Source of the DNA: Tridacna crocea
Taxonomy: Eukaryota > Mollusca > Bivalvia > Cardiida > Cardiidae
Direction of reading: 5' to 3'
Assembly (NCBI GenBank): GCA_943736015.1
Contig: OX031063.1
Coordinates: 38,022,672-38,086,671, forward strand
Length of the DNA: 64,000 bases
Shown here piece by piece: positions 6,134 through 39,581 of the stretch. Position 1 is the first letter of the stretch, and every line of letters begins with the position of its first letter. A model generated the notes under the pieces. The model was not told the origin of the DNA. It searched no databases and saw only the letters and a list, made by a program, of their open reading frames with translations. The position numbers and the translations under genes were made by a program.

Positions 6134-6184
6134 ATGGGAGGGAAAATATCCAAAAGACTACGTGGTAAAAGATCCGAAAAAACG
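6134..6184 (+). CDS. CARD gene exon 1: MGGKIS start
   Basis: ATG sits in a good context (AACATGG), with an in-frame TAA at 6107-6109 upstream. The 17 codons end in phase 0 at a GTAAAT donor. Gly2, Ser6 and a following Lys/Arg run fit the N-myristoyltransferase consensus (Gly2, Ser/Thr6, basic 7-8). This exon is the least certain one because it is short and 4.3 kb from the next, but its phase and start context fit. Confidence 0.5.
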
Positions 6185-9100: not shown

Positions 9101-10837
9101 CTCACCATTTCCTTCTTATATACTTTGTTGTAATTTCTACTGTAAATGTTTTTTAGACTGTAAATATATTTTTTCCTCGTGTTACAAGCAGAATGCACAG
9201 GCTTAAATGAGACGATACTTTTCGCAAATGTATTGCTTATAATTGGCCTGTATCACTCGAAAAGGGGCTTTCAGACATTTGCGTAAAATGTCGTCTCGGA
9301 TCAGCCTGCGCAGTCTGCGCAGAATGATCCGAGACGGCACTTTACGACTACATTAGATTTTGTGAAAGAGTAGACTTGCGCAAAACAGAAAATTACATAG
9401 AAACGGACAATGTCGTTTCGGATTAGCCTTCGCGGACTGTGCAGGCTGATCCAAGACGACACTTTACGCAAATACCCGAATGCCCCTTTTCGCGTGTCGC
9501 AGCCCATATAGAAAGAGCGTCGCAACTTTAACAATGAATATGTGCTCAGATTTTAAAGCTTCATATAGTTGCCGTTTTTCGCCTTTTAGTCGTCATGTTT
9601 AGCCTTTATCCCTTTAGTCACGTTAAGCCTTTACCCCGTATTTTACAGACCCTAAAGATTGATTTATGGTGTGGTGATGAACGCCGTTTTCACTATTTCG
9701 GTTATATCGCGGCAACTAGTGCCTCTATTTATGTTTTCCTTGATTTCCTTTTACTAGAACTTTGCACAGTTTTCGTCCAAAGCCACTGCCCTCCAAAGAA
9801 CTGAACCCTACGGAAGAAGGCGTCGGAAATCATTTTTGGGAACCAGCATTTTCTACTTTTTCTCCACAAAGTTCTTTTTTTTTCTATCCTTGTAAATCGT
9901 TCGGGTCATTATTGATTGATTCCTAAAATCCTTTGTAGACCTGAAAAATTTCTTCGTGTGGTAAATGGTGAATTTGTCAAACTGGATTTAATATCCTTTT
10001 CTTTGTGAAGTTTTAACCACCCAAATATCTCACGAGGTTAATGACAGTAGTGTCTGTGTACTCTTGTTGTGATTTGGAATATGGCGATGGATCTTAGCTC
10101 CCTACCGCTTATCCTCCTATTTCTATTTAAAGTATCACAAACAAGAATGGTCTTTGTTCTAAAACAAAAAAGTTGAACAGCATAAGAGGCACCAGAATAT
10201 GAATATCTTACTTTCCTGTGGTTAAAGACTAAGAGAATAAATGAAAGGTACATGTAGCAATTGCGTTTTTTTCCCCCCACATTGTTTTGCATTTTGCCGA
10301 AAAGAATAGACATACATCTACGGTGTAAAGGACATTATGCATATAATTGGTCTGTAACATGCGAAAAGGGGCTTTCGGACATTTACGTAAAGTGTCGTCT
10401 CGGATAACCTGAGCGGACTGCACAGGCTAATCCGAGACAGCACTTTACGTCAAAATTAGACGTGCTACATTGTCAATGTATGTGTTTTCTTTCCCTTTTT
10501 TTCAGAAAACTCCGAAGCAATACACGGAAGATTTCGATTTCAACGATTACTATGTCGAAAATGATTACGAAAATATAGAGGAAGGAATCGTCGACGTAAG
10601 TACGATTCTCTTCACAGGATAATTAGATTTGAATTCCGCATTTTAAGCTTACGGCGCCTAAAATACAATCCACAGAAACACAAAACAGTTTTTATCTTTT
10701 ATGGCGGCTGATTAAGGAGCAGGCGGTAAATCCAAGATCAGGCTGCACTTTCTGTGCAGTCCGATTTTAATCTATGCCGTCCGATAAAAAAAGAGAGAGA
10801 GAGAAAAAGATACGCACATACACACACGCACATCTTC

Positions 10838-10868
<31 letters not shown>

Positions 10869-13800
10869 ACGCAAAACTTGTTTTCGCTCATGGCACCGAA
10901 ATATTGAGACAGAGAGGAAAAGACAGACAAAAATAGAGACTGACAGATAGGCAGGTAAGCAGGCAGGCATTAAACATGTTTATCAAAGACAGACGGGCAG
11001 ACGGAAGAACATAAGGTAGGAGAAGGACAGACAAAAAGACGATTGAATGGGAGCGGAGGAACAGGCGGACAGGCAGAAATTGAATACAGAAATGCAGACT
11101 GACAGGCAGGCAGGCACTATAAATATATATCAAAGATAGACGGGCTGACGCTCAACCTGTTGAACAGTCGAACAAGCAAACAGACGGACAATCAGGGATA
11201 GAAGCGGTGATGGAATTAATTATAAGACAGTAAGATAGAAAATAGTGTTTTACGCTGGTGGCAGGGGACTTGGAAACTTGTTCACGGCTGTGGTGAATCA
11301 TGTCGTCCCGAGCCGAAGGCATGAACAAATTTCCAAGTCCCCTGCCACCTGACCGTACACCTGACCGTACAACGAATTTATTATACTGCAAAGCTTTACC
11401 ATTTCAAAGCGCGTAAAGCGAAATTTTCATGTTTTATAATCTCACGAATCGAGAATGCTTACGAAATAGAAATTCCCTTCTGAGTGCCCCAATTCAATGA
11501 AAACTGGCGTCACTGGAAAATGATGTCACTAAAACGTGCAGTTTGGTGCATAAACGTGCAGTCTAGTGATCGATCGACGCCGCCATTTTGGATGTTGTGT
11601 TGCAATTGTAGTGATGTTTACGGGGCACTAAAAAGGGAAACTGGCTTTACGTGGTTTTTGCCAGGGTACATGATATATAATGTTCACCAATCAGATCACG
11701 AGAAATTTCTTTGCAGTATATAATGATAGTAATGTTACATGTTACTTGTATTTATATTCATTTTTCAGCGGAGAGACACCGTTTCGGAAGACGGGACATA
11801 TTACGAGACTGTTGATCAAAATGTGCTCGAAGTAAGTATAAAGTTAAAAACTTTATCAGACGACAACATCTCAGACTGGACTAAGTCTGAAACATTTGAA
11901 GAAGATAAATCTAGTGTGACTCAAATGATAGAATAGGTCTGTGAAATGGCAGAAAATGTTGTGGGGAAAGGATCAATTAATCAGTCAATCAATTGATCAA
12001 TATCTAAATTTCGCACCGATTTCTTGGTTTTTGCTGTACTTTGTAGTTTAACCCTTTACTCCATAGATACTCGTTTCTACGCATTCCTTGTAGGAGTCTT
12101 TGGAAAACATTGTGGCAAAAGGTGAAATTGCTTGTGACGAGCAATTTCAGCTTTTGTCACAATGTTTTCTGTGCTATCAAAAGGTGTCCTATACACATAA
12201 AAACGGCTTCATCCTTGCTGTTATTTAGGGTCAATTAGAGATACCATAGAAATGCCTTGGGGGTAAAGGGTTAACAGTGCACACATTTGAAATTTTCTGG
12301 AAATTTTAACCAGGAGTTTCATGTAACCATGTGATTTCTTCCCCGGCTGTATGCGGAGCTGCCCCATCTAATAAAATTGATAATCCTAGATAAACTTATG
12401 CAGGTACAAGATCTTGACATAAACCTTATTCATAAATATACAGTTGCGGAAAAAAGAGCCTTGTTCTGGAAAAAGGGGATTTAGTGCATCTCCATTATGC
12501 ACTACTAGCCAAATTCGTCACATAATTATGAATCCATACGTGCCAGTTTTTGAATTAACCGATATAATCATGAGGTAGTTTGGGCCTTTGACAAACACGA
12601 AATTGACCGATAGGGAATCATGAGTTTCGGCCCATGTTAGCCTGCGCGAACTGCGCAGGCTGACCTGGGTCGATACTTTTCGCAGATGCACGAAGCCCCC
12701 TTGTCATAGAGAATGGCTCAAATAAAGTTTGACGAACACAGTACTGGCAATACTACTAATAGTGCAAAGGAAAATTTAATGATTATGTGTAGTCTATCTG
12801 CCTACTCATAGCTTTTAGGACAATATTTTTTTTCTTTATTTCTGTACCACGTAAACTTTTGAAAAAATTTGCGATAAAATATTACATTGCCAATGTAATT
12901 TAAAAGAAAAAAAACTTTGAAATCAGTATTCCCAAACAATCTTGTATTTTATCGACTCTTGGGGGAGCTTGGAGTAGGGGGAGTTGTGCTTCTGAATGAC
13001 TTATGAAGTCCAATTGTACAATTTCAGCGACATCCTACAATTGTACGCAGTAGAAACTCCCTGGAGTCGATGACGGATTCTGCCTTCAGTGAGAAGTCGA
13101 TGGAAAGCGATCAAAGCATCTATAATAGACAACAACGCCCTTTTACAAAAAGCAAGCTGCCTCGTGAACGGCGACACTCTGTGTCAGTCGATGATCATGG
13201 ATACTATTATTTACCGACCAAGAAAGGAGCTGACAAATTACAGCATCATAACAGAAAAATGACGCCTGTGTGCGAGTTGAATGAATCCTGCGGCGGATCT
13301 GGATGGGTAAACGTGTGTGAAGCACCCATGAAACGACTTGTGTTTCTGTTAGATGCTTATGAGCCGCTTATTGTTAAGTGTCTTAATGTGATGGATGTCA
13401 TTCCACATATACCATTCATAGGTTAGTCTGGAAACGTTTTTACCATTCCAAACTGCATCCTTAGTGGTATTATAGATCTAGCCAACCAGATATAGAATAA
13501 AATAACATTTCTTCATCCTATAAAACCTCCTCCGGCAGTGTATTTAATCCAATACACTAGTGCATTGTCGTTTAATGGATCCCGGTCCTCTCATTTTTGA
13601 ATCATGAAGCTGGAAAAACCATTCACGACACTGTAAGAATTTATACTGCTTTTAGCGGAAAGAAAATGACATTTTTTTTGCTATGACATACGTACGCTTC
13701 AAAAAATTTATCTTTATGAGTAATAGAAATAAGCAACGAAAGGTTTACAGAATTTACTAAACTGCCAAAATAGTTATGCTTCATTCTATACTTGCAGCGT

Positions 13801-16800
13801 AAATGTCACAGAGCTTTTTTTGCTGCGTATGCATTACATACTTCAGGTCAAAATCGTTTACATAAATCAAAATTCTATTTTTACGCTCGGCATTGCACAG
13901 AGCTGCCTTCGGCAACTGTCCGGAATGGTCACGGAAAAAGTTTGGTTTTTTTTGAGTGACACAGAACAATGTCAACTTTTTGAGGTGTAGAAACTTGATA
14001 GCCCAATGGCATTGAAAATATTGTGATAACAAGTAAAATTACTCTTCTTGTATGATTTTATATTTTGTTGCAATGTTTTCTAAAAAGAACAAGCAATTTC
14101 GTTGAAATGGTATCCCCCGCCGAAAAAGACCTTTTTTAATACAAACGTATAAGAGGTATTGTGTTTTGCATGTACATGTGTCCTTTTTGCTATTGGTCCA
14201 TGATGAAATTATTCATTAAACTCCCTTGTTCCATGGCACAGGAGTTCATTACATAAAACAATATAAAAGAGGTCCATAACAGGATTATACATTAAGTATC
14301 CTTTTTGCAGAACTTAGCATTTCATAAAATGAAAACAAATAAAGGAAATATACATAAAACCCCCTTTTCCATGACATGTCATATATAATGATATGTCATG
14401 GAATAAGGGGGGTTTAAGTATATTTCCTTTATTTGTTTTCATTTCAGGATTTCATGTATGTGGTGAAAAAAAAAAGTATCAACGGACTATCCAATGGAAA
14501 ACATGCATGAAGTTTCATCAATTTTTGTCAAGGACTTTAGAAGATATCCCTCTCACAATATAAGCCGCCACACTGCTGCCATTTCAAGCAGGTAGCTAGG
14601 ACCTAACATGTTGAAATTTGTAGCACCTGCCTGGGTAGCTACATGGATATATGGTATTACTTGTGATAAAAGGTTTACGAACAGACTGATGCATGGAGAG
14701 ACGAATGCACAATTGACTCATTGGTCACTGGCTTTGATCAAGCAATAAAAATATGAAGTTCTATGAAAATATGTGCAAAAGTTGGAGATACACTGATAAA
14801 AAATTAAATTTGACATGAAGTCCCCTTTTTCCATGATACAGTGATAAATCCTGACAACATCTGTGAAAATCTCGTCCAAATCTGTTGATATATGTCCAGT
14901 AATTAAAGAGATACAGGTGAAAAATGAAATTATAACATGACTCCCCCTTATTCCATGATGCAGCTACAAATCCCAAAACCTTGACAATATGCCGTAGGTC
15001 ACATGATCATGTGAAAATTCCATCCAAATCAGCCAAGAAATGTGGGAGGCGTTGTGTTAGGTCACATGATAATTTAAAAATTCCATTCAAATCTGCCAAG
15101 AAATGTGGGAGGAGTTGCCTTCACAAGAAATAGAATGAAATAAAACATGAAGCCCCCTTTTTTCATGACGCAGCCACAAATTGCAAAACCTTGAAAATGT
15201 GCGATAGGTCAGATGATAAGAAACATTCTGTGAAAATTCTATTCAATTCTGTCAAGAAATATGGGAAGAGTTGCATTCGCAAGAAATAAAATGAAATAAA
15301 ACATGAAGCCCCCATTTTTCATGACGCAGCTACAAATCATAAAACCTTGAGAATATGCGATAGGTCAAATGATGAGAAACATTCTGTGAAAATTCATTTC
15401 AATTCTGTCAAGAAATATGGGACGAGTTGCATTCAATAGAAATAAAAGGAAATAAAACACGAGACCCCCTTTTTTCATGACGCAGCTACATGTTGACAAT
15501 ATGCAATAGGTCACATGACAAGAAATATTCTGTCAAAATTCTATTCAATCCGTCAAGAAATGTGGAAGGAGTTGCCTTCACAAGAAATGGAATGAAATAT
15601 AACATGAAACCCCCTTTTTTCATGACACCTTATTACAAAAACAAGGGCAAATAACTGTGGTGTTGCACGGTCAATGTAGGTGAAACTTTTTTCCTGCATT
15701 TCCTAATGGAGGTTGACAGATGTGACAAGTTCAATGTAAAAACTTTGTATAGTTTTGAAGAGAAGACTCCAAACATCAAAAGTGTACTTAAGTGTAACTT
15801 AAGTGAAACTTAAAATCGCTCTCAGTCGGCCATTTTGCATCGAATCAAAAAAACAAAAAAAGTGTCTCGGGAGAATGGGTCATTGTACATGTGTATTAAG
15901 TTTCACGAAATTCCGTCTAATGGTAATGGAGATATTTGCCGGGACGGACGCTCGGACGGACGGACAGACGGAGATATTACGTATGATTACATGAAAAAAC
16001 AATGGAAGGGAGACAAAATCTACAAAACCGTCTATACCTATGGACAGCCGATTTTGTCCAAGAATTATGGGTTTCTTGGAATCGATAGATAAGCCCCTAA
16101 GGATCTCGTGGGCAAAATTTCTCAACAGAATTATGAGCTTAGCTCATAAGTTTTCTAAACTCATATATGATGGACAGACCGACAATTTAACTCATAATGG
16201 CCGAGTTTCAGAACGGACGGACGGAAGGACGGACGGACGGACAACGCTAAAACTATATCCCTCCGCCTACGGCGGGGGATAAAAACACCACAATTACGTA
16301 CATATTACACTCGTCTTATGCATTCAGAGTCGTCAGTCTAACGATCCAGAATCGGGTCGGTTTCAGTGACCTACCGGCCCTACCCTGTAAAGAAATGTTC
16401 TACTACATTCCAGTGTGTTTGCATCGCAGATGTGCACATTTGGAGCAAGGAACCGATGTAAAACAAAGACTGTTGGGCATTCATCGATTAAATTTGGTGG
16501 ACATGTCAGGCATAGACTGAAGTTCTTTTTTTCAAAATATGGTTTGATTTTCAAAAAGGATTGTGAATTTCAGTATTGACAATTTTATGGCTGGCATTTT
16601 TGGGGGGTCACCCTGTGCGTTTTCACACATCTCTTTCTAGAATTCATGCTTTATTACTACTCTGCAGATTGGTTGAAAACAGGTAAGCGTTAACAGACTT
16701 CTTGTTGCAATTTTCCAGAGAACACGGCACCTTTTCGTGAAAAACACAGAGACAGCCCACAGGCGGCCGTGGTTTTATTGATACAAACACTAAAAGAGAG

Positions 16801-28800: not shown

Positions 28801-31800
28801 CTATCTAAGGAACATTCCTGCAAAATAGTGATGCTGTCCAATTAGTGGTTTGGGAGGAGAAGATTTTTAAAGGTTTTTTACTTTGGTTGCCATGGAAACC
28901 AGAATTATCCATGGAACACAGTTATTTGAAGAAATTTGAAAGAGGACCACCTAAGGAACATTCCTGTGAAATTTGGTAAAAAATCCAGTCAATAGTTTCT
29001 GAGGAGAAGTTTTTTGAAGAAAAAGTTTACGGACGCACGCACGGACGAACGAACGGACGGACGAACGGACGGACGCATGACGGACACAACGCCATGACAA
29101 TAGCTCGCTGGCCTTCGGCAAGTGGAGCTAAAAACCGCCAGCACATAGAAGGAAATGGATCTTAGGGGAACCCCGAATCGTAGGCCAAAACATCAAAGTT
29201 ACGGACCCGTAACCATTGGAATTCCCTTTCAAAAGAATATCCACAACTTAGGCTTTGGATGCATGATAAACAGTTTAGTGTATAATCAGTCTATATGGGC
29301 GATGTCTGAAAAACATAAGGACGGCGACTCAAACTCGCTCAGAGTCACAGCTCGTCGCGCAAGTGGGCAAGATATTTCTCTTAATTTACCTGTTAATAAA
29401 TCTCTTTTTTGAACAACTTGTGTTCGCCGCAAAGCCTCAACAATTCAGCCTTCTTGCGAGATCCTTTGCATCGTTGTCCTCAACAACTGGATCAGGTAGT
29501 ACGGCGCCTTTTATATCTTCTTCTCATAGTTTCACTATTCTGTCCACCATATTCACGAATCAATAAATGTCTACTTCCATCTTGAAACAATGGCTTCCGT
29601 TCATGATTCTGATTGGTGGATTATTACGTGCGCACGTAATAACTAATACGTGCGCACGTAATACTATTGCGTGCGCACGTATTAACTAATACGTGGGCAC
29701 GTAATAACTAATACGTGCGCACGCAATAGTATTACGTGCGCACGCAGTAGCTAATACGTGCGCACGTATTAACTAATACGTGCGCACGTAATACTATTGC
29801 GTGCGCACGTATTAACTATTACGTGGGCACGTAATAACTATTACGTGCGCACGTAGTATAAAATATATCTTCCATGTCACTTTTGTGCCACCGTAAAACC
29901 GCGATAGCGTTTTTGCGAACAAGAACTGATTGTGCTTTTGTTGGTTCATGACTTGTTGACCCTGTACCAAACAAAACTGCAGCTTGAGGACAATAACCCT
30001 TTACCACAGAATACGAAGGTTTTCACGACCTTGAGAAAAGCTGCCTTTGAAAACATCGTGGGAGAAGGTGAACGTGCTGATCCCGAAAAGTTTTCTCCCT
30101 TTTGGGCACAGTTGTCCTTAGTAGAGCTTTGTTTTAATTTGTCGTCTGCAAATGCTTTAAATATGGAAAAGTCTAAAGGTTTGTGGTTTGATAAATAGAT
30201 ATAGAGGAACGCTTTTAAAAAAAATCACTGGGAGTGAAGATAATGATGAAACTGGTAGTTTGGTCTTGTCTACAATATTTTGTACCACTTAATGATGAAT
30301 TCGACCATTTCAGTCGAATTTACGTAATTTGTTGTTTATTACTGTTTTCAGTATGAGCGACTCTAACGTTCTGTATAACGTGTGTTATTGTTTTCAACAT
30401 GAGCAAGTATAACGTCATCTTCGCTAGCCAAGGTGACGATCACTACATGGATCTTATCACTGATAAGATCCACGTAGTCATTGTCACCTTGGCCAGCGAA
30501 GATGATTTAACGTTCTGTCGTTTTTTTTTTAATGTTTTCAGTATGATCGAGTCTAACGTTCTGTCTAACGTCTGTTATTGTTTTATAATTGCACTCATGT
30601 TGTAAAATCGTTTTTTGATTGGTCAGAATCGGGTCATGTGATGAAAAAACCTGCATGTTATTTTTCGATGAAACGCAATAGCACTAGTCTACTTTCGGTT
30701 TTTCCAAATTGTTGTTGGAATCTAATTTTAGATTTCATGCAAACTGTTTATGGGCTATATTTAGAGTTCCATCGCTGAATCAGTCACATGCAAAAAGACC
30801 GATTTCTTTTTCTGTAAAAAACTTGCTAAAAGGAAACTAACAAAATAAACCTTGACAAAATGATGCGTGTTAACTTTATTTGCACCCTAACAAAAATACA
30901 CTATGCCAACTGTGAATAAAGAGTCTGAATGGTCGACGTCATCAGTTACATCATTCAATACGTCAGCGATCGATTTCTATGAAGCCAGGGTCACGGAGTT
31001 AAATTTAGTACACTGCGTAAACGGAAAAATCACTCTGGCATTTTGATTTGTTTCATGACGGAGTTAAACCTTTTTATTGTGGGGATTAGGTTAAAAAAAT
31101 GCTATTGACCAGAAAAAAGTTATCGCGGATTTGATGGAATATATTTAGTGAAAGAACTGATGGAGAAAGGATCGACAGAAGTGAATACACTGTGTTAAGA
31201 ATTTTTGCAATGTTGGCGTGATAGGAACGATATCAGAAACAAGCTTAGAACTGGGAAACCAAAAATACATATTGAAAAATTAACAGCTGCGACACCGTTT
31301 TTTATGTTCTAATAAGTGGGTCACAAAACGTTGGCGTCATTCGTGTCTTACAAGAAACATAGAATAGACCAAAACTTATATCGGCAACAGATAGATACTC
31401 ATCGAGGACAGATCTGCCGACGGTACGTACGCATATTCTTTACAAATTATCAACGAAAAGGTCACTCGAAAGAACACATCGTCCGCTTAGCCTCAAGTTT
31501 TTATAGTTGATTGTATTGTTCATATAGATCTACATAATTATTTTATTCTTAAATTTTGTTCGATGAATCATCGAAAGTATACTGTCGCCTCGTATTTCCG
31601 CGGTACTTAATGTTTAGTTAAAATAAAATATGATTTTAAATACTTACAAGCCTGGAAATTATACACCAACTTTATCATTTTTTACTGAGAAAGATGTCCA
31701 TCATGAAGATCTATCGATGAAACATGACAGAAGTCGATGTTTAGAGTTGTTGTTGTTCTCACCCGGTTCGCCATTTTTTAAAGGGACGTTACCGTATTTC

Positions 31801-34800
31801 CGCGGTATTCAGTAATATCACCATATAAGAAATATTGTTGATTGAAATACTGGAATATGGATTTATTATGCAAGACGGGGTAAGAATACACCATCAAAAG
31901 CTTTAATAAAGCACTTTTTAATTATTTATTACTTTCAAAATCATTTAATATGCTAAAATTTCTAATAATTTCTGTAACAGTGGGGGCACTTGAAGGAACT
32001 TCCTCGTCTCAGGACTCTTATTGGAGAACAAAAGGCCAAATGGGTCCAGTGAGAGCAAATCTCACACTGGCCCCAGTTGACAATAATAATATTTTCACAC
32101 CCACGTTTTTGGTCTGGGTAAAATTTTTTACATACACAACAAACTTCAGACTCGTCCATTTCTTCATCTGAGGAATCTGAAGTGTCTTCAATTGGAAGTG
32201 GACCACCTTTTCCTCCACTTACACCAGATGTTGAAGGGATACATGTTTTTTCATTGGTTTTATTTAGTTTTATTTTGCAATTTGACTTTCTTTTTTTACA
32301 GATAGATCTTGAAGATGCTTCAAGTGAAATTCATTGGACAAATCCCCAGAAACATTGAAAGGAGGGACAAAGTGTTTGTTTTGTTTTTTGAGAAATAACA
32401 GCTGTGATTTTCCTACTTTCTAAGAAACTGCTGATGTCTGATGACGGCTTACCTGATGAAACATTCTTTTCCCTGGTGTCTTCATCTGGAATGGACTTTT
32501 CATAAATGACCGCAGGAGCCATATCAACTGATTTAATTTTTTCTTTGTCAAAGGGAAAAATACCTGCTTTACAAAATGCTGAGGATATATTATGAGGGGA
32601 CATTGCTTTCAGATATGGTTTGGCTGTCAACCGGGCTATTTCATACCGGGTAATAGATATTCCTGGATTCATCTGAAGGTACAACTGACATTCCCGGTAA
32701 TAATAACTTTTAAAAGAACCAAACAACCCAACATCCAGTGGTTGAGTCAAATGACTTGTATGAGGGGGCAAAACAAAGAGAATAACATTATTTTGTTTTG
32801 CCCACTCAGACAGAGTCAAAGAGATATGTGACTTGTGACCATCAAATAGAATCAAGGAAACGGGCTTTGTTGGGCCATTTGAGACGGACATATATTTTGC
32901 AAAATGACTTGTCAAGTATTCCTCAAAGACTGCCGAGTTGGACCAACCCTTGTCAGACATAGTACCACTGGCCCCATCAGGTGCCCCATCCAACAAAGAA
33001 CTACTCCAACGCTTTCCTGGAAATACATAATAAGGGGGAACAAAATTTCCAAGGGCATTAATTCCTGCAATAATGGTGATGTTTGCAGACCTGGGTGAGG
33101 TGGCAGCCTGAGCTTTGGCCTCAGGTCCACAAACAACTTTTGGCGGGTTATGTTCTGTGCTGACACCAGTTTCATCAATATTATATATATGTTGTGGTGT
33201 TTCAAACAAATTGTTCTTTTGGATGATATCACCCAACTCCTTAAAGTAATTTTCTATTGCTTCCTCAGAGGCACCCTTTGCACGAGCCAGATGTAATTTT
33301 TGAGGCTTCAAAACCTTCAGTTCAGGCCATCTCCTGATGAATGCATAGAACCAATTGTGACTGAGACAATTTCCTACTTCCTTCCCCATAGATACAGCCA
33401 GATCTGCAGCAATGTACTGGATATTTGTCTTGGAATATCCATATCAAATTGAGGCCATGTACTCTATGAAATCTACCAGTTGCCTTTCCTCACTTCGTGA
33501 AAATAAAGTGGATGGTCCACGAGTAGCATCAAGATCTACCAAGTTTCTTGTCCTGTCCCGCAGGGTTGACTCTGGAACATTGAATAAACGTGCTGCCCTG
33601 TAGACCGATGTCCCAGACCGGGTGGCTTCATATGCTCGTATTAAGTTTTCTTTATTGTATGACTTAGGCTTTTTGGGATCCTGAAATGTGAATACTGTTT
33701 TGAAAACAAAAATAAGGGAATCTGTCAATGTGTATTTATTCTCTGTATATAATTTTTTGCAACTATTTATTTTTGTTATAAATGTTTCAAATTAAAGTAT
33801 GATATTTTTGCTTTTTAATTCTATTTTCCATTGAACACCCCACTTTCCAACCAACCCTCAATGCAGTTCAACAAGTGAGTGCCTCCTACAGATTATAAAA
33901 AGATAAACCTGGTTCAAGCTTGTTTATTTTTTTTTTTTTAGCCTCATAAAAAAAAAGTGGTGAAAGGAGAAAATGCTTTAAAAAAAGGAATTTCTCTCTT
34001 CTCCACAGTATTTGACCATGTCAAAAGACAAAATTTTCGGTATATGCAAGTAAATAATAGAGTGAGATAACCTCATTTTATTAAAAAAAAAAACATCATA
34101 TCTGTCATCTGAATCATAATCATTAGTTAACACCTTGAAACTGTCAAAATTATTTTCTTATCAAAGAGTGAGGGAAAAATATAAATTCGCAAGTGGAAAT
34201 GTACCTTTAATACAATCCACATATTTAGTGACGTCATGAAAATCCTACGCGCAGAAGACAGAGATTTGTCGAAGGAAAAAAAGAGCAAAACAGTGAAATC
34301 TGACAACACTTGCAGCATTAACTGATTGCATATTGAAGTCCTTTAGTTTTTCTAAGGTTTGCAATAAAAATGAACCACTTACCCGAATTTTAAACATTTT
34401 TTTCTGGATTTTTTCTTGCTTGGAGTAAAGGACGAGAGTGAAATTGAAAGTCGGTGACGTCACACAGACAGTAGGTGGCGGTGCGATATGTTTACAAGTG
34501 AAATTCGGAATGCCGCGGAAATAGAGGTAACGCGGAAATACGAATTTTATCCCCGTCTAAATTGAAAGCATGTTGCTGACAACCTTTATTAACAAATATT
34601 AGGTCTACTCAGAACACAAAATCTGCCCTCCAAAGGACAGAAAACAATGTTCTTCTCTTTCCACGGTGTTTTCCAAAGGTCCGTTACCCTGGGTGATTAA
34701 GAATGGGATTGTGCGGTATAGAGTTAAATCTTTAGTATTGATCCTTTAGATGAACATGTTATGTGTGCGGCCAATTCTTTAACGGTTCGTAAGCACTGCT

Positions 34801-37800
34801 AGTTTGAACATTTTTCATCCAGTTCCCCACCCCCCTTTTCCTTGTCATTTTCGAGTTTTCGAGTCAATAAGATTTTTATTTGTCATGTACTTTACAGGGG
34901 TTGCCAACCCAAGGCCAAAGCCTTCCGTTTTGAACTCGTACTACATTACACCTATTGATGGTAAGTATTAAAGAGAGAAAAAAAATCATTTGATGACATA
35001 CATGTATTCTATATTGTTTATATATTGTTTCATGCATTACGGCTACACGACAACGAAAATTACCGAGAAGCTGGTTTTTGAAGACACTTCCAGGACCAAA
35101 ATCTACCTTTTCATACTTTCCAGTTGTTGTCAGCACTGTAATCGGTCGCCACTGAATAACTACAATGGTTTAAAATCACAAATCAAATGGTAATTGTTTG
35201 AACTTCGTACAAGATAGAAATCCTATATCTTTTAAGTAAGCCATGTAGGAACCTCCCTTTTCTTTAACTGTTTTTTTTTTTTACAAAAAATTAGTTGTTT
35301 AATGGAATGCTTACAATATATGTTTGCCAGTCAACAGCAGTACAACGTAAAATATTTGTAACAAGTCTGACCAGTATTACCCATTATCAATGCTTTAGAT
35401 ACCACTCATCATGAATAACAGTACCTACATGTAGCAACCTTTCAAAAGAAAAATTAACACAAATAATTTGTCGCATAATGGATGAATCGGGGAGAAAGAT
35501 TGCGTCAAAGTACCGAGGGAGGTAATATATCAATAAACAAAAGTACAGACACACATGGTAAATTTGGATTTGAAAACAGAGGTGGACAGTGAATTTTTGT
35601 CGCCAGGGCCTTAGGGGTGCTTATCATTATGGCGCATCGCAAAAATCCAAACAGTAAAAAACCAATATTATTAAAACAGCGGCTGTTTAAAGGTGGCCCT
35701 TGGGCGATAATTTTACAAAAATACAAAAATATCATCCTTATACTCCCAAAGCCTTATAATTGTCATTCATGAAACCCCAGTAGTCGAAAACCATCCTTCA
35801 ACAAGAGAAATTAGAGATTTACCACGGCCCAGGTCAACATCGACAGGAAACACGTTCTATTTTTACCTGAGCAACTCGCACATATATATACCGGAAATAC
35901 ACAGACGAAGCTTCAAACATAGCGTCTGAGGAAGATATTATGAGGAAGTTGCTCATGTAAAAATAGAACGTGTTTCCCGTTGGTGTCGACCTGGGCCGTA
36001 GTAAATCTCTTATTTCTCTTGTTGTCGGATGGTTTTCGACTGGTGGGGTTTTATGAATGAAAATTGCAAGACTTTGGGAGTATAAGGATGATTTTTTTGT
36101 ACTTTTGTAAAATTTTAGCCTCAAAATCTGAAGGGCCACCTTTAACACTTTAACATTCCCACAATGCTTGTTTTTACTTTTGGCGTGAAATCTGAAAATA
36201 GCTTAAGAGGCTAAATAGCCTTTTAAGGGAACACCATCAAAAAGCTTTTTTTTGTAATTTTATGATTCTTAATTATTGATGATTTGTATTGTTTTTTCAT
36301 ATAAATTTCAGTGATATATATATTTTTTTGATTTGGTGTGAAGTGAAAATTCTAAATACCCACCTTTAATTAACAAAATACAAATATTCCTTTCTGTAAC
36401 CTTTGCGACTTTGGTCACTGTACTTTAACATATTGTCAGATATTATCAATAATATCCGTACTTGAAAATGGTATGAGTAAGACGTATAAATTACGCCTTT
36501 TTTATGACGATCAAATTTGTTTACTTTCGGCTGCTAGCCCGATCCCGTAACTACGTATAACTTGATTAAACGGATCAACCGAAGTTTGCATAATAATATG
36601 TGTGTTAACATAACCCGATACACTTGATTCGCTATTGTTTCATTCATAAAATTGTAGCTTTATCACTGATCTCATTTCTAGTAACTGTGTTGAAAGTAAA
36701 TTCTACGAAGTTTTCAGGTTTTTTTTTTCCCGAGATTTTGATTATTTACTGGTGTTATCACGTAATTCAACACGCTAAACAAACTGTTACCATCATTTAT
36801 AACATAATAGACAAGTTGAGTATGGGATTACTTGAAGGCCCGTCTACTACTATATAGTACATGTACCTTTGTGCCTATCTGGGTTTTAAGTAGTTTTTGC
36901 AATAAGGTCATCAACGCGGGTGTTAGTAGTCTGTAAGTAAAAGCCGAATTGCAGTTACACCAGTTTGCCCTTGAGCAGCGGATGGGTGTCCGAAATTTGT
37001 GGTCTTTTTAATCGTCCGACCGATTAAAAGTTAACAAATGCACATATCCATCGCTAATTGACCGTTTCGGGTGTTGTAGTTTTTCTCCTTTTAAATGTTT
37101 CTGTTCTTATAACGAAGTAGAGGGTATCTCAGCCTTTAAATGATAAAGATCCAACTGTATATCAACCTAGCATTACATAGAATTCCAGTTGTTCCCTTTG
37201 AGGTTTCACCTTTTTTCTGTACTTTAAGATGAAAGTTCTACTCACGAGACAAACCCAAAGCTGCAAACAAACATTGCTGAAGGTATACCAGCAACGGAAC
37301 CAGTTACAGATGAAGAAACAGAATTTCTTAGAAAGGAGCGTGACTGTCTAATAAAAAAAGTGGCACAGCTTGAAAAGGACAACGAAACCCTCTCTCTACA
37401 AGCTGAAGTTTGGAGGCTTCGAAAGGAATTGGATGAAAGAGAAACTGGTTAGTCCTCTCTCTATCCCTGTAAATTACTTTAGTAATGACCTTTAGCATCA
37501 GCATATTCAATCTTATTTTCTTATATATTCATTTTCTTATGAGCTATGCTCTGGCGATAAGGGTTTTATGCATCTCCTAGATGCACGATACCAAGCAATT
37601 CATTAAATCATTATGGACCAATAAAAAATATTTTCCTTAACAACCGACATATTTATGAGATATACTGGTCCCTTGACAAGAGAAAAAAAGAGATAAATGG
37701 CAAAAAGTTTCGGCCTATGTCAGCCAGTCAATTCAAATACATGTATATAGTGCTCTAAATCGTTCTTATAACAAGAGGGTCATGATGACCCACGAGTGGC

Positions 37801-39557
37801 TCTCCTGGGACTGTTTGATCCAAAACTACCGATTTCAAAGATCTTTTAAGATATCAAGAGATATATTTTGAAGATTAACCTGCTGCGCTAGTTTTTATCC
37901 AACGTGACAAACATATTTTTTTTACTAGGATTTGTCTATGACAAAATTTATGATCCAACATGAATTATTTTCAAACCTTATAGAAATCGTCAGGTCAAAT
38001 ATTGGGAACAACTTTCATTAGTTTTGTACTAAAAATAATAAGTCTACACAAGGTTTTTCTAAAATTTGTCCCAGTGACCTACTTATATATTTGATGTGAC
38101 CAGTTATCAAACTTGTCCGAGATACCATCAGGACAAACATTGTTACCAATTCTAATGAGCATTGGACAGAAAATGTGGCCTGTAGAGTGTAAACAAGCAC
38201 TTTCTAGAATTTGACCCAGCGACCTATTGTTTGACCCAACACAACCAATCAACAAATACAACCTCGATAATTCAAGTATTCATAACCTTTCTTTCTTCAG
38301 AAAATGTATCCCAAAAAAGTCTACAATATTTTTTTTTTTTTAAAATTAAATCTGGGGACCTAGTTTTTTTTTAACCTAACACGATCAATTTTCTAACTCA
38401 TGACAGACATGATCATTTTTTAATTTTCACGAGTTTTTGACTGAATTTTTGCCCTCTAGGGTGCTCACAACGCTTTTTACGATGACCTACTTTTTGACCC
38501 AATGCTCTACCTGGTCCAAGATATCACCATGATAAACATTCTGACACTTTCATGAGTGTAGGAGACAACATATGGCTTCTAAAGTAAACACAAGGTTTTT
38601 CAGAGACTTGACTGATTGACTTATTTTTTTACCTACATAACCCATTTCTTGACTCATCATCAAGACAAGCATGCTGACAATCTTTCATAGAGCACTGTGT
38701 AGCAGTTTTGGCCTCCATAGTGTACACTTAAGATTACTCAAAGATTTGACATGGTGACCAGCTTTCTGACTCCACATGACCGATTTTCACACCGCTAATA
38801 CGAGATATAAGTAAAAGTAAACATTAGGACCAACTTTCATGAATATTGTACTGATTTGTGGTCTCTAATAGTGTACTCAGGGTCTTCTGGGATTTAATGC
38901 GTTGACCTAATACTTTGACCGGACTTGACACATTTCAAAACTTGTTTGAAATATTATTAAGACAAACATATTGGCCAACTTTCGTAAGTATCAGACTGAG
39001 CGCGTAGAGTAAGCGAAAACTATCTTTATTTTTAGGTTCGAAATTGTTATCTAGTTTTTGACATGACTAGACCTAGTTTCGACCTCGACCAAGATTTTAT
39101 TAGGGACAAACATTTTGCCACGTTTCATGAGTATAGGACTGCAAAGGTAGCTTCTAGAACGTGGACAAGTTGATCATAGATGTCACAAAATGGACACTGC
39201 ACGGTTAGAAAAGCTCTCTCTCTCTCTCTCAGTTTCAATTCCTCTTTGTCTTTTCCAGATTACCTTCAAGTGAACCAAAATAGTAACAATCACCTTGAAT
39301 GTATTGCCAAAGGAGTTGAGGATATAAAAGAATTACTGAGACAGATGTATGAACGTCAAGTTCTAAACGCACAAACTGGCAGCGCAGTTAATAATGACGC
39401 TATACAACCCGTGGCAGGGTACCCATACTTATATCGACCTACTGCACATGAATTGAAAAAGGTGATCCCATCAAGTTCATACCAAGTCTGCAGTCAAGAT
39501 TCTGCCATATCAACGGGATATAACAGTGCGTTTCCCAGATCCATGAGTGTATGTTAG
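6134..39557 (+). CDS. tandem RLR-type CARD, coiled-coil protein with N-myristoylation motif
   Basis: Nine exons with GT-AG borders (6134-6184, 10506-10595, 11769-11831, 13028-13421, 16719-16850, 17607-17945, 34898-34960, 37229-37447, 39259-39557) total 1650 bases, exactly 549 codons plus stop, with every splice phase matching. Residues 1-17 are MGGKISKRLRGKRSEKT, an N-myristoylation-type start with a basic tail. Residues 18-68 are acidic and Tyr-rich. CARD1 spans about 170-254 (FLLDAYEPLIVK, MDVIPHIPF, KWQSFLEALITAGY). CARD2 spans about 259-349 (LLRLFTPELIRRIDP, ENWFEIFVDVLKK); both resemble the paired CARDs of MDA5 and RIG-I. Residues about 405-450 form a heptad-like coiled coil, continued by a helix near 465-487. 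No helicase, RD or C-terminal membrane segment is present. By family analogy it would act as a CARD signalling adaptor in antiviral or innate signalling. That role, and membrane attachment, are inferences. The introns are full of transposons. Confidence 0.78.
6247..6318. repeat. CT-rich and GCTC microsatellite
   Basis: TCTC runs pass into GCTCGCTCGCTCGCTC. Located 60 bases after CARD exon 1. Confidence 0.8.
6418..6672. repeat. family C double-hairpin MITE
   Basis: AAAGGGGCATTCAGACGTTT at the left and CCCCTTTCAGCGTCTTGCA at the right, with GCGCAGTCCGCGCAGGC inner hairpin. CARD intron 1. Confidence 0.65.
7046..7316. repeat. family C double-hairpin MITE
   Basis: CTGCAATATGCGAAAAAGG to CCCCTTTTTGCGTGTTGCAG. 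Its right end abuts the mariner fold-back element at 7319. Confidence 0.65.
7319..7931. mobile_element. 613-bp mariner-like fold-back element
   Basis: It is flanked by TA on both sides. Ends are CAGGGTGGTCCAATAAAATG and the inverted CAGGGTGTTCCAATAAAATG. About 225 bases of the left end recur inverted at the right end, including the start of the coding region. This is therefore an inverted duplication of a transposon's 5' end with its middle and 3' end lost. It lies in intron 1 of the CARD gene. Confidence 0.75.
7425..7736 (+). pseudogene. N-terminal fragment of a mariner-type transposase (HTH, DUF4817-like)
   Basis: The first ~90 residues carry YSVQERIKIMETYFATKS, TPRQFRRDFPGRNAP and GRPRSARTDPNI. 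This helix-turn-helix layout is seen at the amino end of many mariner-like transposases. The frame starts at a TTG in the listed form; the natural ATG is at 7440 (ATGGATCCAGC). The catalytic domain is absent: the frame runs into the inverted copy of its own 5' end and stops. Confidence 0.6.
7965..8155. repeat. degenerate family A MITE
   Basis: Keeps AGCATTTCCTCCTTTTCCCA and GTCGCTGCAAAAGATG blocks only. 2 of the 4 usual landmarks. Confidence 0.35.
8361..8591. repeat. family A hairpin MITE
   Basis: TTACCTTTTACCAAACAATC to TTTGGTAAAGAGTTAA, central AATGCTGGTAGTCAGCATT. Confidence 0.65.
8719..8753. repeat. family D short palindrome
   Basis: AAGATCAGGCTGCA, 7-base spacer, TGCAGCCTGATCTT: perfect 14-base arms. 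Related copies at 10733-10767, 25776-25822, 61051-61090, 62439-62479 and 63286-63335. Confidence 0.6.
8770..9190. other. CARD intron 1 stretch, nothing recognised
   Basis: AT-rich, no repeat family or coding signal identified. The same holds for 9515-9790 and 9970-10335. Confidence 0.35.
9236..9512. repeat. family C double-hairpin MITE
   Basis: AATTGGCCTGTATCACTCG to TTTTCGCGTGTCGCAG with full inverted halves. A fragment of the same family (9195-9235) precedes it. Confidence 0.65.
10336..10452. repeat. half copy of a family C MITE
   Basis: Only the left half is present (AACATGCGAAAAGGGGCTTT to GACAGCACTTTACG). It ends 50 bases before CARD exon 2. Confidence 0.55.
10506..10595 (+). CDS. CARD gene exon 2: acidic, tyrosine-rich
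   Basis: The exon is flanked by TTTTTTTCAG and GTAAGT, is 30 codons long and in phase 0 at both ends. It encodes a strongly acidic segment with YYVEN and DYENI, two Y-x-(x)-N patterns of the kind bound by SH2 domains when phosphorylated. Confidence 0.65.
10733..10767. repeat. family D short palindrome
   Basis: AAGATCAGGCTGCACTTTCT followed by GTGCAGTCCGATTTT; arms slightly diverged. Confidence 0.45.
10793..11130. repeat. low-complexity block: GA, poly-C, CA and degenerate CAGG/AGAC repeats
   Basis: GAGAGA, then a poly-C run (10838-10854), CACACA, then (GACAGGCAGGCAG)-like degenerate tetranucleotides. The long Cys/Leu-rich minus frames here are artefacts of this composition. Confidence 0.75.
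11257..11349. repeat. 93-bp inverted repeat with 28-base arms
   Basis: GGTGGCAGGGGACTTGGAAA at the left is matched by its inverse at the right with one mismatch over 28 bases, loop about 37 bases. CTGACCGTACAC is tandemly repeated just outside. Lies in CARD intron 2. Confidence 0.6.
11769..11831 (+). CDS. CARD gene exon 3: micro-exon with GTYYETV
   Basis: The 63-base exon lies between TTTTTCAG and GTAAGT, with phase 0 at both ends. Because exons 2 and 3 are both multiples of three, skipping either would keep the frame. Confidence 0.65.
12048..12274. repeat. family B hairpin MITE (full length)
   Basis: TTAACCCTTTACTCCATAG at the left, GGGGGTAAAGGGTTAA at the right. Central hairpin GAAATTGCTTGTGACGAGCA, with a unique right arm GGTCAATTAGAGATACC. 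Shares the AAAACATTGTGGCAAAAGG stem and TTAA ends with family A. CARD intron 3. Confidence 0.7.
12630..12715. repeat. fragment related to family C
   Basis: GTTAGCCTGCGCGAACTGCG with GCAGGC hairpin and CTTTTCGCAGATGCACGAA. Shorter and more diverged than the full copies. Confidence 0.4.
13028..13421 (+). CDS. CARD gene exon 4: Ser/basic linker and start of CARD1
   Basis: The 394-base exon opens at ATTTCAG and ends at a GTTAGT donor in phase 1. The first hundred residues are a low-complexity Ser, Arg and Lys-rich linker (residues 69-169). The last 30 residues are the first helices of CARD1 (KRLVFLLDAYEPLIVK, then MDVIPHIPF). Confidence 0.75.
14111..16281. mobile_element. 2.2-kb non-autonomous element with 12-bp TIRs and internal tandem repeats
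   Basis: TATCCCCCGCCG at 14111 is matched by its reverse complement ending at 16281, and TA is found at both edges. The middle (about 14.8-15.65 kb) holds degenerate repeats of roughly 150 bases, each with a 'CCCCCTTTTTTCATGACGCAGC'-like core. The right end has CGGACGGACGG runs and a hairpin (CTCCGCC TAC GGCGGGG). No coding domain is recognised. It lies in intron 4 of the CARD gene. Confidence 0.55.
16719..16850 (+). CDS. CARD gene exon 5: rest of CARD1
   Basis: Acceptor TTTTCCAG and donor GTAACA frame a phase-1 exon. It holds the central and fifth helices of CARD1, with AAVVLLIQTLKE followed by KWQSFLEALITA. The latter is the W-x(3)-F-x(2)-AL signature seen in RLR and MAVS CARDs. Confidence 0.8.
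17607..17945 (+). CDS. CARD gene exon 6: CARD2
   Basis: The 339-base phase-1 exon carries the end of CARD1 (GYKYIAKLL) and all of CARD2. Its ENWFEIFVDVLKKCQLEDLI segment lines up with the MDA5 CARD2 segment built on NWFSAFLNVL. The next exon is 17 kb away because intron 6 took in two large transposons. Confidence 0.82.
18114..18336. repeat. family A hairpin MITE next to the ISL2EU left end
   Basis: TTTAACCCATTATCACACA to TTTGGTAAAGATGTAA with central AATGCTGGTAACCAGCATT. Ends 28 bases before the transposon. Confidence 0.65.
18365..18758 (+). repeat. left terminal inverted repeat with 16-unit palindromic array
   Basis: A 36-base unique terminus is followed from 18401 to 18746 by 16 units of about 21.5 bases. 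Each is built on the self-complementary 14-mer TACGTGCGCACGTA or a one- or two-base variant (for example CGTGCCCACG, or GCGTGCGCACGC). Units are joined by TTA or CTA spacers, and the array ends at CCAATCAG. The transposase ATG follows at 18818. Confidence 0.9.
18751..18758 (+). promoter_or_regulatory. CCAAT box upstream of the transposase start
   Basis: CCAATCAG sits at the inner edge of the left array, 59 bases before the transposase ATG. The same box lies in mirror position in the right end, so each end may act as an inward-facing promoter. That promoter role is inferred. Confidence 0.35.
18818..22626 (+). CDS. ISL2EU-like transposase (THAP, HTH, DDE), nearly intact
   Basis: Three exons in phase 0: 18818-19219, 20553-20669 and 21465-22626. 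Exon 1 starts MPRVNYCVPLC and carries a C2CH THAP zinc finger: Cys7, Cys11, the VCSLHF pair, a central Trp and CPTIFP. Exon 3 has a helix-turn-helix (LDLAERFGISEIHVSRI) and a DDE nuclease fold. The acidic triad lies in IDCTE, MADRGF and HVERLTGRLK. Two breaks are visible: an in-frame TAG at 19052-19054 after the THAP domain, and one extra base in a T run near 21724-21728 that splits exon 3. With those two exceptions about 559 residues are open. It would bind the element's ends through THAP and catalyse cut-and-paste transposition. Intron 2 contains a family B MITE. Confidence 0.8.
19290..19738. repeat. two family A MITEs in transposase intron 1
   Basis: 19290-19467 (TTTACCAAACGAGCCCGAC, ends TTGGTCAAGGGTTAA) and 19532-19738 (CTTTACCAAACAACAAAG, central GAAAATGCTGTTTAACAGCA). 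Confidence 0.5.
20095..20242. repeat. partial family A MITE
   Basis: Keeps AATGCTGGTTACCGGCAT and CATCTGCAAGTGCTTTGAAT; the left end is missing. Transposase intron 1. Confidence 0.4.
21164..21392. repeat. family B MITE in transposase intron 2
   Basis: Reverse orientation relative to 12048-12274: TTAACCCTTTACCCCATAAG at the left and GAGTAAAGGGTTAA at the right; hairpin GAAATTGCTTGTCACGAGCA. Confidence 0.7.
22646..22694. terminator. perfect hairpin between the two convergent transposon genes
   Basis: Arms of 21 bases starting ACCATTCTAAGTGCC pair perfectly around a 7-base loop, 19 bases after the transposase stop codon. It lies between the convergent transposase and nuclease genes. It could form a transcript 3' end structure or be a small inserted hairpin; the sequence cannot tell which. 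Confidence 0.4.
22915..23082. repeat. shortened family A MITE
   Basis: TTAACCCTTTCCCAAAC to TTTGGGACAGGGTTAA; the central hairpin has lost one arm. Confidence 0.5.
23357..24200. repeat. run of four family A MITEs
   Basis: 23357-23577, 23691-23845, 23845-24030 and 24050-24200 lie almost head to tail between the convergent transposon genes. The third is the best, with a perfect AATGCTGGTTACCAGCATT core and GGTAGAGGGTTAA end. The fourth runs up to the nuclease stop codon. Confidence 0.55.
24195..24762 (-). pseudogene. YqaJ nuclease domain exon
   Basis: Opens after TTTATAG and contains HGQANNPLWFRHKKGRITAS in one frame, then the catalytic core (NE, SPDG, VEIK) in the next. It is the best preserved part of the nuclease gene and identifies the family. 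Confidence 0.75.
24811..25503. repeat. run of three family A MITEs
   Basis: 24811-25020, 25033-25240 (TTAACCCTTTACCAAAC to AAGGAGTTAA) and 25275-25503. All are in the nuclease intron between 24762 and 25572. Confidence 0.6.
25776..25822. repeat. family D short palindrome
   Basis: AGATCAAGATCAGACTACAC opposite TGCAGCCTAATCTTTGATCT. Confidence 0.4.
26380..26475 (+). repeat. possible tRNA-derived SINE head
   Basis: GGCTCAGTGGTTAAAG resembles a pol III A box, and GTGGTTCAAAGTTTCAAGTC some 60 bases later resembles a B box. No cloverleaf with paired acceptor stem can be drawn, so a functional tRNA is unlikely. It sits in an intron of the nuclease gene. Confidence 0.3.
26669..26812. repeat. truncated family A MITE
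   Basis: TTAACTCTACCACACAATC and central AATGCTGATAACCAGCATT; the right third is absent. Nuclease intron. Confidence 0.5.
27860..28290. repeat. two adjoining family A MITEs
   Basis: 27860-28066 and 28065-28290 share a TTAACTCATTACC junction. Both are inside the 27.8-29.1 kb repeat. Confidence 0.5.
28410..28640. repeat. family A hairpin MITE
   Basis: TTAACTCTTTACCAAACGAC to ATTGTATGGTAAAGACTTA, core AATGCTGATTACCAGCATT. Confidence 0.6.
29610..29617 (-). promoter_or_regulatory. CCAAT box facing the nuclease gene
   Basis: CCAATCAG on the minus strand, at the inner edge of the right array and mirroring 18751-18758. A minus-strand ATG follows at 29604, but it opens only a short frame, so the true first exon of the nuclease gene is not resolved. 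Confidence 0.3.
29610..29893 (-). repeat. right terminal inverted repeat with 11-unit palindromic array
   Basis: This is the inverted match of the left end: CCAAT box (29610-29617, read on -), 11 palindromic units from 29621 to 29859, then the same 35-base terminus. It has five fewer units than the left end, so array length varies while the outer terminus is conserved. Confidence 0.9.
29993..30196. repeat. family A MITE just outside the ISL2EU right end
   Basis: AATAACCCTTTACCACAG to TTTGTGGTTTGATAAATAG; central hairpin diverged (CGTGCTGATCCCGAAAAG). Confidence 0.45.
30355..30585. repeat. hairpin (30417-30503) between direct repeats
   Basis: Arms of about 43 bases (ATCTTCGCTAGCCAAGGTGA and inverse) with few mismatches and almost no loop. 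Flanking direct repeats at about 30355 and 30545 share CTAACGTTCTGT and TGTTATTGTTTT. No gene. Confidence 0.55.
30780..31590. other. intronic stretch with no recognised feature
   Basis: CARD intron 6 between the ISL2EU and pogo elements. Only short open frames without family resemblance; I see nothing further. Confidence 0.4.
31962..33680 (-). pseudogene. pogo-like transposase with C-terminal PHD-like finger
   Basis: Read on the minus strand from an acceptor at 33681. First comes a psq-type helix-turn-helix (SVYRAARLFNVPESTLRDR). Next is a CENP-B-like segment (HNWFYAFIRRWPEL), then a DDE_1 nuclease with the triad in IDETG, LFDGHKSHIS and QPLDVGLFGSFK, that is D-D-D. At the C terminus (31962-32159) lies a C4HC3 finger: CCVCKK, then WGQCEICSHWTH, FC and KCPHC, which fits a PHD finger. 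A TGA at 33444-33446 interrupts the frame after the HTH, and the segment between DDE and finger shows a stop and frame change near 32.33-32.38 kb. The first exon is not seen. It would be the element's own transposase; this copy is not functional as it stands. Confidence 0.72.
33945..34035. repeat. relic of a family A-like hairpin
   Basis: GGTGAAAGGAGAAAATGC faces AATTTCTCTCTTCTCCAC; otherwise decayed. Inside the pogo element. Confidence 0.25.
34898..34960 (+). CDS. CARD gene exon 7: Pro-rich micro-exon
   Basis: TTTACAG acceptor, GTAAGT donor, 63 bases, phase 1 at both ends. It encodes a short linker with ANPRPKPS and YYITPID. It could be skipped without a frame change. Confidence 0.6.
35686..36145. 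mobile_element. 460-bp fold-back element in CARD intron 7
   Basis: Two arms of about 195 bases pair across a centre near 35.91 kb. Outer ends are TTTAAAGGTGGCCCTT and its inverse, and matching inner landmarks include ATCATCCTTATACTCCCAAA, CACGGCCCAGGT and ACACGTTCTATTTTTAC. Arms differ at scattered bases and small gaps. No coding capacity. A fold-back MITE of unknown superfamily. Confidence 0.75.
36150..37228. other. rest of CARD intron 7, no recognised feature
   Basis: AT-rich intron sequence after the fold-back element. No coding or repeat family recognised. Confidence 0.35.
37229..37447 (+). CDS. CARD gene exon 8: coiled coil
   Basis: The acceptor is weak (ACTTTAAG) and the donor is GTTAGT; phase 1 at both ends. 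The second half shows a leucine-spaced heptad pattern (FLRKERDCLIKKVAQLEKDN and onward), a probable dimerising coiled coil. Confidence 0.75.
37769..39176 (+). repeat. HINE-like repeat in CARD intron 8
   Basis: Starts ACAAGAGGGTCATGATGACC and GAGTGGCTCTCCTG, the same opening layout as the 48.5 and 51.9 kb repeats. It is followed by about ten diverged units with the words 'GACCTA-TTTTTGACC' and 'GACAAACATT'. It has no clean 3' hairpin. Confidence 0.45.
39259..39557 (+). CDS. CARD gene exon 9: C terminus
   Basis: The exon follows TTTTCCAG preceded by a CT repeat and ends at TAG 39555-39557. It opens with a helix (CIAKGVEDIKELLRQMYERQ), then a Ser/Tyr-rich tail with no hydrophobic anchor, ending SMSVC. 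AATAAA follows 19 bases after the stop. Confidence 0.75.
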
Positions 39558-39575: not shown

Positions 39576-39581
39576 AATAAA
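39576..39581 (+). promoter_or_regulatory. polyadenylation signal of the CARD gene
   Basis: A canonical AATAAA starts 19 bases downstream of the stop codon and is followed by a T-rich stretch, so the 3' UTR would be very short. Confidence 0.55.

Follow-up and report, generated by a model that had tools for sequence, protein, structure and literature searches.

The window that we analysed is a stretch of 64,000 nucleotides from the bivalve Tridacna crocea, and it contains a gene that lies on the plus strand between positions 6134 and 39557, near 38.0 Mb on contig C8 of the 1.05-Gb genome. Sequence reading combined with scripted exon joining gave eight exons (E1 to E8) that join in matching phase, with entry phases of 0, 0, 0, 0, 1, 1, 1 and 1, into an intact frame of 528 codons without a stop. 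The features of the locus, in window positions, are:

6134-6184, plus strand: exon E1 with the start codon, encoding MGGKISKRLRGKRSEKT; phase-0 exit; N-myristoylation-like signal and basic patch
10506-10595, plus strand: exon E2, acidic and tyrosine-rich KTPKQYTEDFDFNDYYVENDYENIEEGIVD; phase 0-0
11769-11831, plus strand: exon E3, RRDTVSEDGTYYETVDQNVLE; phase 0-0
13028-13421, plus strand: exon E4, low-complexity linker with an RRHS site, then the first half of CARD1; phase 0 in, 1 out
16719-16850, plus strand: exon E5, second half of CARD1 (WQSFLEALITAG); phase 1-1; homologous exon in the relative called paralogue B
17607-17945, plus strand: exon E6, CARD2; symmetric phase 1-1 exon
18468-29895, no strand assigned: young high-copy transposable element of about 11.4 kb in the E6-E7 intron, not part of the gene
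34898-34960, plus strand: optional or false exon of 63 nt, GVANPRPKPSVLNSYYITPID; phase 1-1; part of an earlier 549-residue model
37229-37447, plus strand: exon E7, leucine-repeat helix (EFLRKERDCLIKKVAQLEKDNETLSLQAEVW); phase 1-1
39259-39557, plus strand: terminal exon E8, short heptad helix LECIAKGVEDIKELLRQMYER and a Tyr/Ser-rich end; stop codon TAG at 39555-39557
39576-39581, plus strand: AATAAA polyadenylation signal, beginning 19 bases past the stop codon

An earlier note on this DNA had described nine exons that join, with all phases matching, into 549 residues. Eight of these exons stand, in phase and with 528 residues, but the ninth, the 63-nt piece at 34898-34960 that alone makes the difference between the two lengths, is at chance level both by splice score and by codon usage. 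The polyadenylation signal that the same note placed 19 bases after the stop codon is present, with AATAAA starting at 39576. Since the phase is 1-1 for E7 as well as for the 63-nt piece, either could be skipped with the frame kept, and E6 could join E8 directly in frame. A further 42-nt candidate exon within CARD1 (16641-16682) is in phase, but was left out because with it the CARD1 score drops from 32.0 to 30.6 bits and because its codon usage is not coding-like.

Splice and codon support for the exons

The splice score of each exon was set against the number of its equals, defined as pseudo-exons with matching phase and comparable length on either strand of a 34-kb stretch. Only E2, with a splice score of 14.2, has no equal on either strand. 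Equally good pseudo-exons on the plus and the minus strand, respectively, number two and two for E7, one and two for E3, none and three for E5, three and three for E6, none and nine for E4, and none and one for the 63-nt piece. Thus, the splice score alone proves little. E7 had appeared to be unique by this measure when thresholds and rounded scores were used, a result that we rejected since two equals per strand emerge once both are removed. The acceptor of E8 scores 9.4.

Codon usage was scored after training on 5136 bases from 13 open stretches of other CARD, C-RD and neighbouring loci, and each exon was ranked against 2000 open non-exon stretches; with few bases to train on and with overlap among the null stretches, these ranks are rough. 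E7 is the most coding-like exon, with none of the 2000 null stretches scoring as high. The share of null stretches that score as high is 0.2% for E6, 2% for both E2 and E5, 9% for E3, 20% for E4, 26% for E1, 32% for the 63-nt piece and 43% for E8, and by rank against these stretches codon usage gives no support to E1, E4 and E8. We consider the CARD exons secure because of their homology, E7 because of its codon usage, and E2 because of its splice score together with its codon usage. E1, E3 and E8 are phase-compatible, without independent proof, and as the last exon of the model E8 is only weakly supported. In its general outline the gene is real.

The long intron

The gap between E6 and E7 measures 19.3 kb, and the element that lies in it (18468-29895) aligns in two adjoining pieces, at 97-98% identity, with a copy at C10:36.03 Mb that is located beside a CARD locus at C10:36.02 Mb. 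A 601-base probe from the element gave 40 full-length copies of about 100% identity among the 40 that were scored of 4100 candidates. The element carries a THAP domain and a DDE_Tnp_4/HTH_Tnp_4 transposase on the plus strand and a weak YqaJ-like frame on the minus strand, a content that we take to suit an ISL2EU-type element; its transposase region seems to be split over two frames. As 11.4 of the 19.3 kb is a young insertion, E6 and E7 were about 8 kb apart before it arrived.

This intron bears on the possibility that the model is in error, such that the CARD exons of a decayed RIG-I-like receptor (RLR) have been joined on paper to unrelated downstream exons. Such an error could arise since the exon joins are known from genomic sequence alone, the intron is long and contains transposable elements, the tail encoded beyond it is without relatives among 15 scored candidates of the genome, and the splice score of E7 and the codon usage of E8 are unremarkable. 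Nevertheless, most of the long intron is the young insertion, the codon usage of E7 is coding-like, all CARD exons are intact and in phase, and no helicase match lies near. We regard an error of this kind as improbable.

Other remnants of mobile elements are present at 32331-33443 (minus strand), 55931-56446 (plus strand) and 45485-45916 (minus strand), with domains of a DDE_1 transposase, a piggyBac-like DDE_Tnp_1_7 transposase and a reverse transcriptase fragment. Additionally, window positions 49389-50990 and 53637-54903 match several places in the examined regions of contigs C9 and C7 at 79-88% identity and, judging from these matches, are presumably older dispersed repeats.

Two CARDs of the RIG-I/MDA5 type

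The earlier note had proposed that the protein carries tandem CARDs like those of RIG-I and MDA5, and a profile search bears this out. Pfam matched CARD_2 twice and CARD once in the protein; taken separately, CARD2 matched CARD_2 with an E value of 3.6e-18 and CARD1, comprising the end of E4 together with E5, with 1.3e-7. The tandem pair begins after an extension of 165 residues. Among solved structures, the best phmmer matches are the double CARDs of RIG-I (1.6e-10) and MDA5 (1.4e-5), and a profile built from eight CARD2s of this genome matched RIG-I (1e-18) and MDA5 (7e-14) better than Apaf-1 (1e-5), MAVS (about 2e-5) or CARD11 (9e-5). The sequence signature W-x(3)-F-x(2)-(A/V)L that had been read in both domains holds for CARD2, which has WFEIFVDVL, but not for CARD1, where WQSFLEAL has the spacing W-x(2)-F. 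With a pLDDT of 45, an AlphaFold prediction for the isolated CARD2 exon gave no usable information.

The N-terminus and the C-terminal tail

The protein starts with MGGKISKRLRGKR (MGGKISK...), which places glycine at position 2, serine at 6 and lysine at 7, followed by a run of basic residues. In N-myristoylation signals, Gly2 is accompanied by a small residue at position 6, with basic residues behind it, and the N-terminus agrees with this sequence pattern; it also resembles that of BASP1. The start context ACAAACATGG has A at -3 and G at +4 of the ATG, and an in-frame stop lies nine codons upstream. Three ATGGG starts between positions 1 and 13000 of the window fit a loose myristoylation pattern, and only that of E1 is followed by a phase-0 donor. 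The N-terminus, a feature absent from the earlier description, fits a putative N-myristoylation signal plus a basic membrane patch, and the modification itself may be predicted from it.

After CARD2 a coiled coil had been described. In a home-made heptad score, the value of E7 was reached by 49 of 1000 shuffles and that of E8 by 157 of 1000 with a 28-residue window or by 41 of 1000 with a 21-residue window that was chosen afterwards. Measured against these shuffles, a coiled coil is plausible only, and weakly supported. The tail matches no Pfam family above the cut-off; its best match is Cep57_CLD_2, a coiled-coil family, at 19.2 bits against the 27.1 required. No membrane-spanning stretch was detected, as the highest 19-residue Kyte-Doolittle mean of the protein is 1.46 and falls within CARD1; in the last 40 residues the highest 19-residue mean is 0.13. 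For both the N-terminal exons and the tail, no paralogue was found at E values up to 1 among 15 scored candidates of the genome. The protein also contains YENI, which we take to be a possible GRB2-type site.

RIG-I-like receptors of the genome

We searched the whole genome in six frames for CARD, helicase and C-terminal domains, scoring only the best candidates. Of 10 scored C-RD candidates four matched, each of them on contig C9. RIG-I_C gave two matches, also on C9, thereby finding two of the three RLRs. ResIII gave 34 matches with E values of at most 1, and exons from each of the three RLR loci were among them. These three loci, with CARDs at C9:29.40, 53.60 and 46.45 Mb, span 31-82 kb of the minus strand, where CARD, ResIII and C-RD follow one another in this order; they served as positive controls for the helicase search.

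The earlier note's claim that no helicase follows CARD2 agrees with this search, as no helicase, RIG-I_C or C-RD match lies near the gene at C8:38.0 Mb while the three RLRs on C9 were detected. Among the listed ResIII matches, those on C8 lie at 25.9 and 46.6 Mb. The best ResIII match of each RLR is itself weak (E 0.006-0.008), and a divergent helicase could therefore escape the search. A C-RD as divergent as those of the RLRs, which match with E values of 2e-17 to 3e-24, should not escape. A regular-expression scan for helicase motifs in the examined genome regions, run without a positive control, gave nothing convincing.

The fourth C-RD, at C9:53541044-53541373, has no CARD_2 exon of its own among the listed matches and belongs either to a partial RLR duplication or to a CARD-less RLR. 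Its exon is nearly identical to one at 53.57 Mb.

Paralogue B and the CARD2 exon

CARD_2 had 10 matches among 15 scored candidates of the genome, of which the CARD2 of our gene is the best; three are in the RLRs. Paralogue B, the closest relative without a helicase, is on the same contig on the minus strand (C8:1218761-1211179). It was modelled with five exons that have the same entry phases (0, 1, 1, 1 and 1) and two CARD_2 stretches over 391 residues, the first and fourth acceptors being picked by eye. Its first modelled exon matches E4 in phase (0 in, 1 out), and its stop lies two exons after CARD2, in a non-helicase ending. The alignment score between the CARDs of the gene and those of paralogue B is far higher than that of any of 500 shuffles. 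For their tails homology was rejected, since 343 of 500 shuffles reach the observed score. The approximately 15 kb upstream of paralogue B yielded no exon with an MG start and a donor. Paralogue B is a compact version of the same layout, with only 1.4 kb from CARD2 to the next exon, and the recurrence of the order argues against a mis-joined RLR.

Eight of the 10 CARD_2 loci were used for a CARD2 tree and a table of exon phases; C7:54.30 and C12:23.40 were left out, the former since its sequence is caspase-like by eye. That locus (C7:54303601-54303867) is a lone CARD exon with the look of an initiator-caspase CARD. In the tree the gene groups with paralogue B (ultrafast bootstrap 97; FastTree 0.95), and the RLR at C9:46.45 Mb is placed next to them with weak support. 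By identity, the CARD2 of this same RLR is the closest of seven compared (33%), and that of paralogue B has 31%.

Vertebrate CARD-only proteins damp signalling by capping CARD assemblies. The main rival explanation is that the protein is such a decoy or brake, whose helicase-free CARDs would cap RLR or MAVS CARD assemblies and damp signalling. The likeness of its CARD2 to that of an RLR from the same genome speaks for this, as does the finding that Pfam detects no effector or catalytic domain in the protein; a lipid anchor and a long helical tail, however, would be superfluous in a pure decoy, and 528 residues in eight exons are elaborate for a cap. On balance we consider a decoy unlikely.

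Three more CARD_2 loci, at C10:36.02, C10:36.10 and C9:20.72 Mb, have no helicase or C-RD match nearby. By eye, a CARD1-like exon precedes CARD2 at both C10 loci. At C9:20.72 Mb (region C9:20700001-20740000) there is a possible CARD1 second-half exon upstream, CARD2 is entered in phase 1, and the nearest ResIII match is about 320 kb away on the opposite strand. The CARD2 exons of the two tandem-CARD loci on C10 (36.00-36.04 and 36.08-36.12 Mb) are 59% identical, and each locus is followed by a long open frame on the same strand with Cys/His pairs and a helical stretch. These pairs resemble by eye a degenerate B-box, with no Pfam B-box match, and the C10 loci are possibly a class with the order CARD, CARD, B-box-like region and coiled coil.

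The CARD2 exon is entered at the same place and in phase 1 at all eight loci compared (three RLRs and five loci without a helicase match). Its best-scoring exit donor, searched from a motif near the end of the domain to the next stop, is also in phase 1 at 8 of 8 loci, with weak donors at the C9:46.45 RLR (-4.6) and at paralogue B (-0.3). A symmetric 1-1 exon, a form that favours exon shuffling, joins any phase-1 partner in frame and thus provides a simple route by which the CARD2 could acquire different tails.

Comparison with known systems

The gene resembles RIG-I and MDA5 in its tandem CARDs of the same type and shares with the RLRs of its own genome a phase-1 intron at the same place before CARD2. 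It differs from them in that it has no recognised helicase, RIG-I_C insert or C-RD and has instead a long N-terminal extension and a helical tail. Like MAVS, it encodes a CARD protein without a helicase that is possibly membrane-bound. Nevertheless, the single CARD of MAVS contrasts with the two that the gene encodes, and MAVS has a transmembrane segment at its C-terminus, which the gene lacks; the putative lipid anchor of our protein is at the N-terminus. In oyster, for example, CgMAVS is reported to combine its one CARD with a Death domain and a transmembrane segment (PMC5557890). The view that the gene is neither a MAVS nor an RLR is supported by its two CARDs, the lack of a hydrophobic tail and the lack of a helicase match near it.

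With CARD9, CARD10, CARD11 and CARD14 the protein may share an order in which CARDs are followed by a coiled coil. Unlike these proteins, its two CARDs are internal, its CARD2 profile is nearer to RIG-I than to CARD11, and it has no MAGUK part. This CARD-CC family is described as a separate CARD family that is said to occur in those invertebrates with Bcl10, and oysters possess Bcl10 (PMC5978004). The possible lipid anchor recalls a further protein only by analogy. TRAM (TICAM2) is a myristoylated innate-immune adaptor, and it is like our gene only if the N-terminus of the latter is modified; it has a TIR domain instead of CARDs and is not homologous.

The earlier note had held that this architecture would be a distinct one, which is not supported in that form, as the class is not unprecedented. 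Two Aplysia genes (LOC101858480 and LOC101846979) are reported to encode RIG-I/MAVS-type CARDs without a helicase and C-terminal domain, the first of them with two CARDs (PMC9334734). These mollusc proteins are like our gene in both respects; the passages of that study on them mention no tail or N-terminal anchor, and the word "coiled" is absent from its main text (PMC9334734). All three RLR-type proteins of Aplysia are reported to be without CARDs and MAVS is reported as missing (PMC9334734), which is different from Tridacna, where the genome has CARD-bearing RLRs.

The Aplysia situation suggests a split receptor, in which our gene would supply CARDs in trans to CARD-less RLR-type helicases. 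CARD-less RLR-type proteins beside a separate two-CARD protein, as reported there (PMC9334734), speak for such an arrangement, as does the fourth C-RD at C9:53.54 Mb, which has no CARD_2 exon of its own among the listed matches. On the other hand, the three RLR loci of this genome carry their own CARDs and no helicase-binding feature was recognised in the protein, and we think a split receptor quite improbable.

CARD-like genes alongside CARD-less RLR homologues were reported for Nematostella in 2009 (PMC2686710), and a 2022 survey of lophotrochozoan RLRs described domain grafting at the RLR N-terminus (PMC8998645). As that survey describes its procedure, a C-RD profile and RLR queries were used and only genes with both a helicase and a C-RD were kept (PMC8998645); consequently, helicase-free genes with a CARD pair would be missed by design. 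Among the titles and abstract openings of the best matches in the open-access literature, none reports a myristoylated or coiled-coil RIG-I-type double-CARD protein.

Discussion

When RIG-I and MDA5 bind RNA, their CARD pairs cluster and then seed MAVS filaments. In the protein described here, no RNA-binding part was recognised. Our preferred reading, which we hold tentatively, is that the gene may well encode a helicase-free double-CARD scaffold that descends from the CARD half of RIG-I-like receptors or goes back to a common ancestor with it, and that is membrane-tethered and self-associating; the function that we infer for it would run as follows. N-myristoylation at Gly2 together with the basic patch would hold the protein on a membrane, and the C-terminal helices would form dimers or higher oligomers, thereby replacing RNA-driven assembly. 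The clustered CARDs would in turn seed filaments of a CARD partner, for example MAVS or an adaptor of the BCL10 type. Regulatory sites may lie in the linkers rich in tyrosine and serine, and the trigger would lie elsewhere, perhaps in phosphorylation of these linkers. The protein would thus be a signalling scaffold with no RNA sensing of its own. On the most economical guess, clustering would be the work of a lipid anchor and a self-associating tail, and the protein would act as a membrane scaffold. The earlier note had suggested an adaptor or decoy, and the gene may have such a role.

A bolder proposal, which as it stands we find rather unlikely, is that the RIG-I-type double CARD is a mobile phase 1-1 cassette that has been grafted onto several non-helicase tails to give RNA-independent scaffolds. 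The gene would then be a lipid-anchored, self-oligomerising member that starts antiviral-type CARD filaments at the membrane without an RNA sensor.

If such genes signal, then the CARD pair would be a free-standing output module that is re-used with other inputs, and RNA sensing would be only one input among several. Additionally, they would provide a concrete candidate for an alternative adaptor where MAVS is reported missing, as for example in Aplysia.
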